DNA of 64,000 nt from assembly GCF_900698975.1 (NCBI RefSeq), contig NZ_LR217722.1, positions 1 through 64,000 of the forward strand, given 5' to 3'. Positions 5,730 to 16,923 of the stretch are shown here, piece by piece. Below the pieces are notes generated by a model, which ran no database searches, had not been told where the DNA came from, and worked only from the letters and a program-made list of their open reading frames with translations. The position numbers and the translations under genes are program-made. Origin of the DNA: Buchnera aphidicola (Cinara splendens) (GTDB lineage Bacteria > Pseudomonadota > Gammaproteobacteria > Enterobacterales > Enterobacteriaceae). Position 1 is the stretch's first letter. Each line of letters opens with the position of its first letter.

Positions 5730-6662
5730 TTATATGTTTAATTGATTGAATAAGTATAAAAAGTCGTAATAAATTTTATTTTTTTTTTTTTTTAAATAAT
5801 TGATTTTTTTACAAGCGTGTAATACAGTAGTATGATTTTTTTTGCCAAAAGCTTTTCCTATTTCGGAATAGTTATAGTCAGTTAACTTTTTTATTAAAAG
5901 CATAGCAATTTGTCTAGGCTCTACAATAGATTTTCTTCTCTTAGAAGAAATAATGTCTGATTTTTTAATATTAAAATAAGCAGCAACTTTTTTTTGAATT
6001 AAATATATATTCATGCTTTTTTTTTTGTTTTTTTTTAATTGATTTATTTGTTTTTTTATGAAAATTTTTGTCATTTTTTTTTTTTTAAGAATTAATTTTA
6101 AATGTATTTTTTTTAAAAAAAATATTAATTCTTTTATATTAGCACACATTTTTTGTGAAATATATTTTGCCATTTTATATGATAATTTAATATTATTATT
6201 ATGAGCTTTATTTAATAAAATATGTATTTTAGTTATTAACTCCGGCGGATTAATTGATGTGATTAATCCTGATTTAAATTGAGATGGTAAATTTTGTGAT
6301 ATTTTTTTTATTTGATTTATACTAAAATTTGTCGTTAACACAATTTTTTGATTTTTTTGTAAGAATTTATTTAATATATTAAATATTTTTTTTTTTTTTT
6401 TATAAAAGAAATATTGAATATCATCTATTAATAAAGTTTCTATAGAACTATAGAAATTTTTAAAATGGATTATAGAATTGTTTTTTAATGAAAAAATCAT
6501 ATTACGAATAAAATTTTTTGCATGTATATAAATTATTTTATGATTATGATTTTCTGTTAAGATTTTATTGCCTATAGCATGAAGTAAATGTGTTTTTCCG
6601 CATCCAGCATTTCCACATAAAAATAATATGTTAAAAAAATTTTTTGATTTTTTAGAAAACAT
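5730..6662 (-). CDS. dnaA: DnaA, replication initiator, N-terminally eroded
   Basis: Recognisable domains III and IV of the initiator ATPase. Walker A GNAGCGKT is at residues 17-24, Walker B LLIDD at 77-81, and the C-terminal box-binding signature NHTTVLHA at 276-283. Family length is about 450-470; here only 310 residues follow the first ATG. The frame is open to 6779 and homology runs to about 6728, reading NNFIEGTSNQLAR before the ATG, so the ATG falls inside the AAA+ domain. No ATG, GTG or TTG lies between 6662 and the in-frame stop at 6780-6782. Domain I (DnaB/DiaA contact) and the domain II linker are missing. The residue aligned with arginine finger R285 is Gln128 and that aligned with R281 is Asn124. 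It may be a reduced initiator or a gene on its way out. Confidence 0.8.
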   Translation of the reverse strand: MFSKKSKNFFNILFLCGNAGCGKTHLLHAIGNKILTENHNHKIIYIHAKNFIRNMIFSLKNNSIIHFKNFYSSIETLLIDDIQYFFYKKKKKIFNILNKFLQKNQKIVLTTNFSINQIKKISQNLPSQFKSGLITSINPPELITKIHILLNKAHNNNIKLSYKMAKYISQKMCANIKELIFFLKKIHLKLILKKKKMTKIFIKKQINQLKKNKKKSMNIYLIQKKVAAYFNIKKSDIISSKRRKSIVEPRQIAMLLIKKLTDYNYSEIGKAFGKKNHTTVLHACKKINYLKKKKNKIYYDFLYLFNQLNI

Positions 6663-6782
6663 GTATGCTGCATAACGCGCTAATTGATTTGATGTACCTT
6701 CAATAAAATTATTAAACTGATAGTTAAGTTGAATGTCATTTTTTGAAAGTAGTTTTTTTTTGATAGTTTTAATATTATTTTA

Positions 6783-7981: not shown

Positions 7982-8311
7982 ATGATATATCTGAAACGTA
8001 TTTTTTTTATAATATCTTGTATTGTTTTTTCTTTTTTGGTGTGGAACTTTTGGAATACACATGCTTCTATAAATCAAAATAATATAAAGATAAATAGTTT
8101 TGTACATAAAATTTATGACATTAAAAATAATAGTAATATTCAATTGAATAATATATTGAACGATTTAATTTTCTTGAATATTAATTTATTAAGAAATCTA
8201 TCTGGATCTTTAAATACATTAAAAAATAGTGATTTTTTAAATAAAAAATATTTAGTAATTGATTTTACAATTATAAAAAATTTTTTTTATGAAATAACTA
8301 GTAAAACATGA
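7982..8311 (+). pseudogene. yidC: YidC N-terminal fragment (first membrane segment and start of periplasmic domain)
   Basis: 109 codons from an ATG. The first 30 residues, rich in I, F and W (FFIISCIVFSFLVWNFW), match the first transmembrane segment of YidC in sequence and place. What follows resembles the start of the P1 periplasmic domain, then a TGA stop at 8309-8311. The footprint from here to the end of the next entry is 530 codons, about the full YidC length in relatives (548 in E. coli). So this is the broken front of yidC rather than a separate gene. Whether the peptide is still made is unknown. Confidence 0.75.
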
Positions 8312-8707
8312 AATAAAAATAATTTCAATATTACAAAAAATAAAATTATCGCACAGTGTAAAACATTTTACTTTATGTATATTGTTGTTTATTTTTTGAA
8401 AATAAAAATGTTAATACAACAAAATTTTATTTATAATTTTTTCAATAAAAATTAATTCTTTAGTACATTATTTGTATGGCATAAGAATAGATGGTATATT
8501 TTATACAATAATATACATTTAATATATAATTTTTTACGGGGTATATTATAAGAAATTTTTTAATTAATATTTTTTAAAAAGTTTTATATATAAAGAATTA
8601 TCAAGTAACTGTTTTTAATACTTATAGATATTATTAAAATTTTATTTTTAGTAATATTTGGTATAAAAAATATACATATCATAATTAACATTAACTGGAT
8701 AGTTATA
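8312..8707 (+). pseudogene. Decayed YidC periplasmic (P1) region
   Basis: About 400 bases between the two readable parts of yidC. The frame stays open for about 43 codons after the TGA, then fails. A second frame near 8580 reads VLYIKNYQVTVFNTYRYY, like the KRGDYAVNVNYNVQ stretch of E. coli P1. All frames are interrupted by several stops, so this region cannot be translated through. ggatag at 8697-8702 could serve as the ribosome-binding site for the downstream insertase part. Confidence 0.6.
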
Positions 8708-9571
8708 ATGCAAAGAAAATTTTTAACAATTTGGATTTCTCATATTTATAATCAATTTGTCATTTTTGTAAATAAAGTTAATAGTAGTATTACATTAATT
8801 AAATTATTGTCAAAAATATATCATTTTCAATTTTATTATCTTTATAAATTGTTTAGTAATGCGTGGTTAAGCACTATAGTAAAAAATGTTGTGTTATTTT
8901 TTTCAAAAAATTTGCAATTTATAACAAAATACGCAAAATTAAATATAATTTCCTACCCTATTTTCAGGTTGTTGGTCTTTTTTTATGGGTTTTTTCATAA
9001 TTGGGGTATAACTATTATTTTTGTAACTATTTTAGTAAAGATAATTATGTATCCGTTAACTAGATTACAATATGTATCTACGTTACATATGAAAGCTTTA
9101 CAACCAGAAATACAGAAAATAAAAAATCAATTTTGTAATGATTCAAGAGTAATAAATAAAAAAATTTTATCTTTATATAAATTTAAGAAAATTAATCCTT
9201 TTTTTAGTTTTTTATCTATAATGTTACAAATACCTATATTTTTATCATTTTACTATGTATTAGTTTCTTCAGTAGAATTAAAGAACGCGCCTTTTATTTT
9301 TTGGATTACAGATTTATCTAGTTACGATCCGTATTATGTATTACCGATTTGTGTGATTTTGAGTATTTTATTAACTCAATATCATGAATTAAGTTATAAT
9401 AATATTATCAAAAAGAAAAATTTTTTATGTATCATGCCATTTTTATGTACTTTTTTTTTATTTTGGCTTCCATCTGGTTTGATCTTGTATTATATAACGA
9501 GTAATTTAATGACTTTTTTGCAGCAATGGATTATACGTAGAAATTTTTTTAAAAATAATAAATATAATTAA
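8708..9571 (+). CDS. yidC: YidC C-terminal insertase domain, now separately encoded
   Basis: Membrane insertase core in the inner membrane. Residues from about 80 match E. coli YidC from TM2 to TM6, with hydrophobic segments near 95-112, 160-185, 200-220 and 235-275. IMYPLTRLQYVS, LQPEIQKIKNQF, SVELKNAPFIFWITDLS, DPYYVLPI and WLPSGLILYYITSNL are all family blocks. Lys111 aligns with the groove arginine R366, a conservative change. The first 80 residues are a poor P1 remainder. The ATG at 8708 follows GGATAG by six bases, so independent translation is plausible, giving an Oxa1-like minimal insertase. Confidence 0.85.
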   Translation: MQRKFLTIWISHIYNQFVIFVNKVNSSITLIKLLSKIYHFQFYYLYKLFSNAWLSTIVKNVVLFFSKNLQFITKYAKLNIISYPIFRLLVFFYGFFHNWGITIIFVTILVKIIMYPLTRLQYVSTLHMKALQPEIQKIKNQFCNDSRVINKKILSLYKFKKINPFFSFLSIMLQIPIFLSFYYVLVSSVELKNAPFIFWITDLSSYDPYYVLPICVILSILLTQYHELSYNNIIKKKNFLCIMPFLCTFFLFWLPSGLILYYITSNLMTFLQQWIIRRNFFKNNKYN

Positions 9572-15805: not shown

Positions 15806-15877
15806 TTTTGTAATTTTTTGTAGAATTTTTTAAATAAAATATTGTAAATATTATAATAATAAAAAATTGAGGTTTAT

Positions 15878-16923
15878 ATGTGTAATAAAAAAAAAATTTT
15901 TTTTCTAGTTTAAAATCTTTTTTTAAAAAAAAAAATCAGAATAATACTTCTGAAAATAAAAAAAAAACCTGTTTAAAAGATTCTTCTTCAAATTCATCTA
16001 ATTATAAAATTAGTTCTTTTTTTAATAGTTATGTACATAGTACCAAAAATTTTTTTATTAATAAAATAAATAGTATTTTTTATGCACCAAAATTAGATGA
16101 ACAGATGCTTAAAGAATTAAAAAATTTATTATTGTCATCTGATTTTGGAATAACTGCTACTGAAAAAATTTTGCATATATTCAAAAAACATATTAAAAGA
16201 AAAAATTTAATAAATTCTAAAAAAGCTATTATATATTTTAAAAATTTGTTATTAAATATGTTAGTTGTATCTAAAGATAAACGTTGTAGTATTTCTGAAG
16301 CTAAAATGCCATTTATAATTTTAATTATTGGAGTTAATGGTGTAGGAAAAACTACTGTTGCTACAAAATTAGCATATTATTATAAAAAACTTGGTTATTC
16401 TACTATGGTTGCTGCAGGTGATACTTATAGATCTGCTGCAATTGATCAATTAATGGATTTAGGTGCATTACATGGAATTCCAGTTTTTTCTAAACCTCTA
16501 GGTTCAGATCCTGCTTCAGTTGTATTTGACGCAATTAAAGAATCCATAAAACAAAAAAAGAATATTTTGATTATTGATACTGCTGGTCGTTTACATAATA
16601 AAAATCATTTAATTCAGGAATTACAAAAAATTAATCGAGTAATTAATAAATGTCATCCTACAGCGCCTCATGAAATATTTTTAGTACTAGATTCTGGAAT
16701 TGGTCAAAATTCTATAGAACAGGCTAGAGTTTTTTCTTCCAATCTTCCTGTTACAGGGTCGATTATTACTAAATTAGATGGTACAGCTAAAGGTGGAATT
16801 ATTTTTTCAATTGCTCATGAGCTAACAATTCCTATTTGTTTTGTTGGTACAGGAGACAAAATAACAGATTTTTCATCTTTTGATAGTACAAAATTTGTTG
16901 ATAGTTTTTTTAATATTAGTTAA
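15878..16923 (+). CDS. ftsY: FtsY, signal recognition particle receptor, frameshifted at a poly(A) tract
   Basis: SRP receptor GTPase that delivers ribosomes to the translocon. As written, the ATG at 15878 meets a TAA at 15911 after 11 codons. One added base in the A10 run at 15887-15896 (followed by T8) restores one frame of 348 residues, starting MCNKKKNFFSSLKSFFKKK and running to the normal C-terminus. The intact part holds the N domain (about 70-150) and G domain with GVNGVGKTT, DTAGR, TKLDGTAKGG and GTGDKI. The N-terminal A domain is short and Ser/Asn/Lys rich. In-frame internal ATG at 16105 would cut into the N domain, so it is an unlikely true start. Slippage rescue is inferred from known Buchnera behaviour. 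Confidence 0.85.

Follow-up and report, generated by a model that had tools for sequence, protein, structure and literature searches.

The ftsY gene of Buchnera aphidicola (Cinara splendens) lies one base out of frame at an A10-T8 tract directly downstream of its start codon, and it is best explained, on the DNA evidence, as a further gene in a rare but already recognised type of rescue. The best explanation of how enough in-frame ftsY mRNA would be made appears to be slippage at the tract, probably by RNA polymerase, and we regard it as reasonably probable. The gene was found in the window, the 64,000-nucleotide stretch analysed here (positions 1 to 64,000 of contig NZ_LR217722.1), where domain matches place it between rsmD on the opposite strand and rpoH, the gene names being our own reading. 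ftsY is held to be essential.

All features of the locus are on the plus strand. A Shine-Dalgarno sequence, GAGG (15869..15872), ends 5 nt 5′ of an ATG (15878-15880) that opens an 11-codon dead-end ORF, MCNKKKIFFLV (15878..15913), with its TAA at 15911-15913. The proposed slip site is the A10 tract at 15887..15896, which contains an in-phase A AAA AAA heptamer (15889-15895) and is followed by the T8 tract at 15897..15904, so that the one-base offset lies in an A/T run of at least 9 bases. The FtsY reading frame, 344 codons plus stop (15889..16923), is free of further lesions and is closed directly upstream by TAA TAA (15883..15888), and there is therefore no in-frame start further 5′. The preliminary description had given the ATG frame, its stop and both tracts, all of which were confirmed when the sequence was re-read, and had proposed that one base added in the A10 run gives a continuous FtsY of 348 residues. 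Frame reconstruction bore this out, the product being identified by a TIGR00064 match above the curated cut-off and by SRP54 GTPase and SRP54_N domains, while addition of two A's gave only 10 residues. One additional T in the T8 tract would be expected to restore the frame likewise. The residues immediately 3′ of the tract, FFSSL, are part of an N-terminal FFSxL motif common to E. coli FtsY, in which lysines precede the FFSxL, and both sides of this motif are kept across the break. Two further A tracts in the FtsY N-terminus (15925..15967), A11 at 15925 and A10 at 15958, are in frame in the window; by our reading, the A11 tract corresponds to the one broken in G012 and in genus g52, as described below.

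The ftsY locus was compared across 16 congeneric genomes, and the added-base reconstruction covered 14 of these, all but G008 and G014. A +1 offset at this one tract was common to eight of the 16 (G000, G001, G002, G004, G005, G006, G007, and G015), the tract being A10 in seven and A9 followed by G (A9-G-T8) in G005, and in every one of the eight the Shine-Dalgarno sequence and ATG were followed by a dead-end ORF of exactly 11 codons. GAGG was found 5–6 nt upstream of the ATG in all eight as well as in G003, G009, and G011. Two genomes required +1 at a later A tract, G012 at A13 and G010 at A8 or A10 (from a TTG start), and G013 required +2 or −1 at A8/T10, with an in-frame ATG at −123. In G011, the sister of G000 and G004, the tract is A9 and the start reads ATGTGTG; the frame of its ATG closes after 9 codons, and a GTG lying four bases past that ATG opens the whole of ftsY (346 residues, as P0002), a different way out of the same frame problem. 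The gene was in frame in four genomes, G003 (A11), G009 (A8), G008, and G014, the last two taken from the start listing, with no Shine-Dalgarno sequence matched in G014. The FtsY and RpoH tree put the eight offset genomes in two clades, both well supported, inside a fork that it left unresolved. One or two origins of the offset would be the simplest reading of this distribution, and repeated loss at a mutation-prone run may also account for it. The offset is thus both shared and recurrent, which goes beyond what the reading of a single sequence could show.

Given that A10 runs are error-prone, a sequencing or assembly error in the homopolymer was weighed as the source of the offset. The Cinara Buchnera libraries of one study were PCR-amplified Illumina libraries, according to the available part of PMC6908640, and it is our guess that the window genome came from that study. 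A full-length database FtsY, P0001 (348 aa, 100% identical over the query), comes from a record of 445,237 b compared with 445,216 b here, under a pairing of database records to genomes that is our own. By the same pairing, this difference of 21 b compares with exactly 20 b for six sisters (G001, G002, G003, G005, G006, and G015), 0 for four (G009, G010, G012, and G013), and 31 for G011, so that the P0001 record may hold one extra base somewhere, possibly in the ftsY tract, for the window genome alone. For G006, with its 20 b difference and A10 tract, the database also has a full-length 346-aa product (P0007), and FtsY there seems to have been annotated across the break. Both kinds of record exist for a G003-like genome: P0006 is full-length, and P0012, from a record 75 b shorter, comprises the C-terminal 253 residues of P0006. 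A simple A11 misread as A10, the outcome that the preliminary description had named as fatal to its proposal, is nevertheless made unlikely by the same offset in eight genomes, one of them with the interrupted A9-G-T8, the single database record leaving doubt for the window genome only. In addition, G003 reads A11 and is in frame, and the same assemblies read in frame through other runs of A11 or longer, 19 in G000 (over 124 kb) and 36 in G136 (over 120 kb), counted as distinct runs inside matched genes. This speaks against systematic undercalling, which would break those genes too, and we consider an error in the sequence very improbable as the cause of the offset.

A frame break in ftsY also occurs in a second genus, g52, where, in all six genomes, the ATG frame passes an FFSW-like motif before it is broken at an A tract further downstream. 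The tracts are A11G, A13, A13, A13, A16, and A16, and +1 is needed in each. A wider scan covered 53 ftsY loci, the six from g52 included, and 40 had an in-frame start located 130 or more residues upstream of the P-loop. Eight loci were without such a start, namely the g52 six, G177 (a contaminated draft), and G102, which has a short N-terminus with an in-frame start; the other five (G106, G140, G141, G114, and G032) were unmatched by the motif, and their in-frame starts are visible in separate listings. The G087 genus was represented by 36 genomes, and five of these (G144, G148, G158, G161, and G168) gave no locus and stand outside the 53-locus scan.

A shortened FtsY lacking the N-terminal segment, with the 5′ part of the gene dead, could be made by internal initiation, the second of the two options offered in the preliminary description. 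Internal starts are assigned in the database to FtsY proteins from several sisters (P0003, P0004, P0005, and P0010) and to the one from Ceratovacuna japonica Buchnera (P0122, 261 aa), and an in-frame TTG or ATG lies at −138 or −123 in G012 and G013. Such database starts call for caution, as automatic annotation assigns internal starts to several of these FtsY proteins. In the window, the first in-frame ATG of the FtsY frame, which is also the first of ATG, GTG, or TTG, is at 16105..16107, and a start there would shrink the SRP54_N match from profile positions 2-68 to 26-68, with loss of the first part of the N domain (positions 2-25). The first in-frame ATG, GTG, or TTG, listed for all 16 genomes, differs among the eight with the offset, and there is no common downstream start. 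The Shine-Dalgarno sequence, the ATG and the FFSxL motif just 3′ of the tract are kept in these eight genomes and the post-tract frame is retained, so that slippage at the tract is better supported than the truncated internal start. In addition, mid-gene breaks in nusG, described below, are beyond the reach of internal initiation. The offset itself, its sharing among genomes, the open frame after the tract, and the lack of a common alternative start are direct observations.

The post-tract segment was also examined for signs of selection. In a neutral simulation from one ancestor, the post-tract frame was open in all nine tips (one of them G011, in frame by its GTG) in 0 of 1000 runs, which argues against a dead 5′ part; when frame loss was placed separately in each subclade, the neutral chances of an open frame were 0.62, 0.084, and 0.085, making the open frames less telling. 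For the 72 codons from the tract to 16105, dN/dS was 1.42 between G000 and G004 and 1.53 and 1.06 in the comparisons with G011, values of about 1 or more that are on the side of internal initiation and count against slippage, while six pairs from other subclades gave 0.35–0.61. Between G000 and G004 the segment carries 7 amino-acid changes compared with a chance mean of 6.8, and the neutral chance of an open frame is 0.50. These 72 codons show no amino-acid constraint in the window lineage, and the G000-G004 comparison is compatible with neutrality. Since G011, which is in frame via its GTG, changes equally fast, the rapid N-terminal change may be linker behaviour. On balance, internal initiation is an improbable explanation of the locus. 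After 16105, dN/dS was 0.17–0.32 in nine pairs, indicating that ftsY is otherwise intact with its main part under purifying selection, its N-terminal segment being relaxed in the window lineage. This purifying selection also weighs against ftsY being a young pseudogene in the course of gene death, as do the presence of a second SRP54-domain gene, presumably ffh, and the offset being common to eight genomes. Buchnera does lose genes, and dnaA looks eroded in the same window and in relatives, but we regard gene death as the least probable of the readings considered.

Other genes were screened for breaks at A tracts in two ways. A start-to-stop comparison of 49 window ORFs in six genomes flagged ten, namely dnaA, two yidC pieces (7982 and 8708), groEL, rsmD, ftsY, and four ORFs that are small or lie at an edge (56973, 57735, 59331, and 63643); the groEL flag, due to the G011 value, is an artefact by our reading, and the rsmD flag reflects longer starts in relatives. 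The same comparison for the 28 genes found in at least six of 11 genomes flagged seven: ftsY (9/11), dnaA (5/6), yidC (5/11, all g1), nusG (5/11, the five g52 genomes), the rpoD C-terminus in one genome, and two ATP-synthase genes, which we read as fliI cross-hits. A scan for matches in two frames used 139 reference ORFs, 100 of which had matches in at least three of 11 targets, five targets being covered to 120–124 kb and six to 60–64 kb. It returned 14 gene-genome cases in five genes (nusG 5, dnaG 5, dnaA 2, rsmI 1, transaldolase 1), a lower bound, as the scan is blind to start-proximal breaks such as that in ftsY. All 14 cases needed +1, and a run of A10 or longer lay near the junction in 13. 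The transaldolase gene of G006 is broken without an A tract, unlike the tract cases, and looks further decayed.

The nusG and dnaG counts refer to five g52 genomes (G136, G135, G137, G133, and G066), the sixth, G134, having been taken for ftsY only. nusG is split mid-gene, at about codon 53-57, in all five (in G136 at L160:17281-17801, minus strand) at runs of A10–A13, with +1 needed each time; in G000 and G009 its frame is unbroken. Across the six pairs that four of the g52 genomes form, dN/dS was 0.12–0.31 before the tract and 0.07–0.11 after it, and both nusG halves are under purifying selection in the four genomes measured. dnaG is split between its core and C-terminal part in all five, again with +1 needed; the two frames overlap by only 13–52 nt, and every overlap contains a run of A11 to A22 with differing flanks. 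As separate observations, dnaA in the window (5730-6779, minus strand) has no in-frame ATG, GTG, or TTG until 6662 and carries runs of A16, A13, and A15 in the sense strand; it is further broken near A21 in G004 and near A14 in G002, is intact in G009, and had no match in the g52 stretches examined. Among six g1 genomes compared, YidC (window 7982-9571, plus strand) has 549 residues in G006 and is short in the other five, with 287 residues in three of them and 285 and 356 in the remaining pair, and a separate 109-residue ORF at 7982 precedes yidC in the window.

Under the slippage model, the genomic ftsY frame would have been one base short at the A tract, most simply since the ancestors of both subclades that carry the offset. 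Ribosomes would start at the conserved Shine-Dalgarno-ATG, and most transcripts, carrying A10, would yield the 11-residue peptide. In a minority, RNA polymerase would slip back and add one A (or one T in the T8 tract), giving full-length FtsY. FtsY is needed in small amounts, and the rescued minority could therefore suffice, with the offset tolerated or even kept. Slippage is favoured by the same offset in eight of 16 genomes and two subclades, by the +1 at a later tract in six of six g52 genomes, and by the mid-gene breaks in nusG and dnaG, where the halves are conserved and an alternative start would be of no help. The occurrence of slippage, its mainly transcriptional nature, and the amounts are our inference. 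RNA polymerase is favoured as the slipping machine by the run length, by the lack of structure beyond chance, and by the excess of A/T-run insertions in Buchnera transcripts, where, in the available part of PMC5574713, nearly all transcription insertions fell in A/T runs and most were of a single base. The same portion of that study counts against rescue in reporting no restored frame among the transcription errors of another Buchnera strain. As excerpted in a review (PMC5009743), 12–50% of the mRNAs from frameshifted genes were corrected by slippage in two endosymbionts, one of an aphid and one of an ant, and the sections available of PMC6260861 report that, in out-of-frame lacZ with 7–11 A's, insertion was at least twice as efficient as deletion. 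The latter source also describes bacterial RNA polymerase as relatively poor at bypassing indels, requiring at least 7 T's and even more A's, which slightly lowers the odds of slippage, while the ftsY T8 exceeds this minimum as quoted there. Breaks at short runs (A9 in G005; A8 or A10 in G010) also count against slippage.

The same MCNKKKNFFSSL product would be made if the ribosome, and not RNA polymerase, shifted, by −1 frameshifting or sliding on A AAA AAA. An added base and a −1 ribosomal shift give the same product, so that the two look alike in DNA. The heptamer at the tract is in phase, nearly all breaks need the +1 that equals a −1 ribosomal shift, and by our reading one run in G010 ends in an in-phase A AAA AAG. 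However, no downstream structure beyond chance was found in six folds (three in the window and one each in G002, G006, and G005), the best z being −1.61 with 14 of 200 shuffles as good. Shine-Dalgarno sequences of dnaX-type frameshift sites lie 10–14 nt upstream of the shift site, and the end of the sole one here, GAGG, is 16 nt from the heptamer, a wider spacing. The 13 A-tract breaks are all at A10 or longer, though shorter heptamers should serve ribosomes, a pattern that mutation bias could also explain. In the portion available of PMC4363877, E. coli cell-free translation gave a robust truncated product on A11, and the statement in PMC6260861, as excerpted, that bacterial RNA polymerase slips relatively poorly on A runs is likewise on the side of the ribosome. 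A shift by the ribosome is an unlikely reading, though one with a real share of the probability, and slippage by RNA polymerase is preferred. The +1 phase bias (13 of 13 A-tract breaks of the two-frame scan) could serve as a signature of which machine slips.

The closest counterparts are endosymbiont genes that carry A-tract frameshifts and are rescued through slippage in transcription, described by Tamas et al. (2008) and Wernegreen et al. (2010) as cited in PMC3017870 and PMC5009743. There, as far as the available text goes, a single-base offset likewise sits in a long A run of an otherwise intact gene and is conserved between species, and rescue comes, as is proposed here, from an altered number of bases in the transcript. 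In contrast to those cases as described there, ftsY is the SRP receptor gene, the break is directly 3′ of the start codon, it is found in eight of 16 congeneric Buchnera, and it recurs at another tract in a second genus. In Blochmannia vafer (PMC3017870, in part), homopolymer frameshifts including those in dnaX and dnaG likewise break information-processing genes at A/T tracts and are presumed rescued; that symbiont and its genes are different, with dnaG again broken at A tracts in g52 Buchnera. E. coli dnaX, with its A AAA AAG (PMC5009743, as excerpted, and general knowledge), likewise has a slippery A run and an in-phase heptamer; unlike dnaX, ftsY has neither structure beyond chance nor a well-placed Shine-Dalgarno sequence, and the shift would be needed for its only full product and not for a second one. 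No description of the ftsY case was found in a partial survey of the literature on frameshifts and slippage in Buchnera and other endosymbionts, Cinara and Ceratovacuna included.

The offset may be merely tolerated, or it may be kept by selection as a form of expression control. Selection reportedly maintains ancient frameshifts, in the words of the title of the 2010 paper by Wernegreen and colleagues. We tentatively suggest, as a somewhat doubtful proposal, that a few core genes in the Buchnera of two aphid lineages (ftsY in each, joined by nusG and dnaG in the hormaphidine lineage) carry obligatory, phase-conserved slip sites that are held one base short by selection, with the polymerase slippage rate setting expression. 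If so, the levels of the SRP receptor, NusG, and primase would be set by polymerase slippage, and NusG could regulate itself. These observations suggest that an essential gene can remain out of frame at one position across speciation, and ftsY offers a clean start-proximal case for the reliance of a reduced genome on slippage in transcription or translation.
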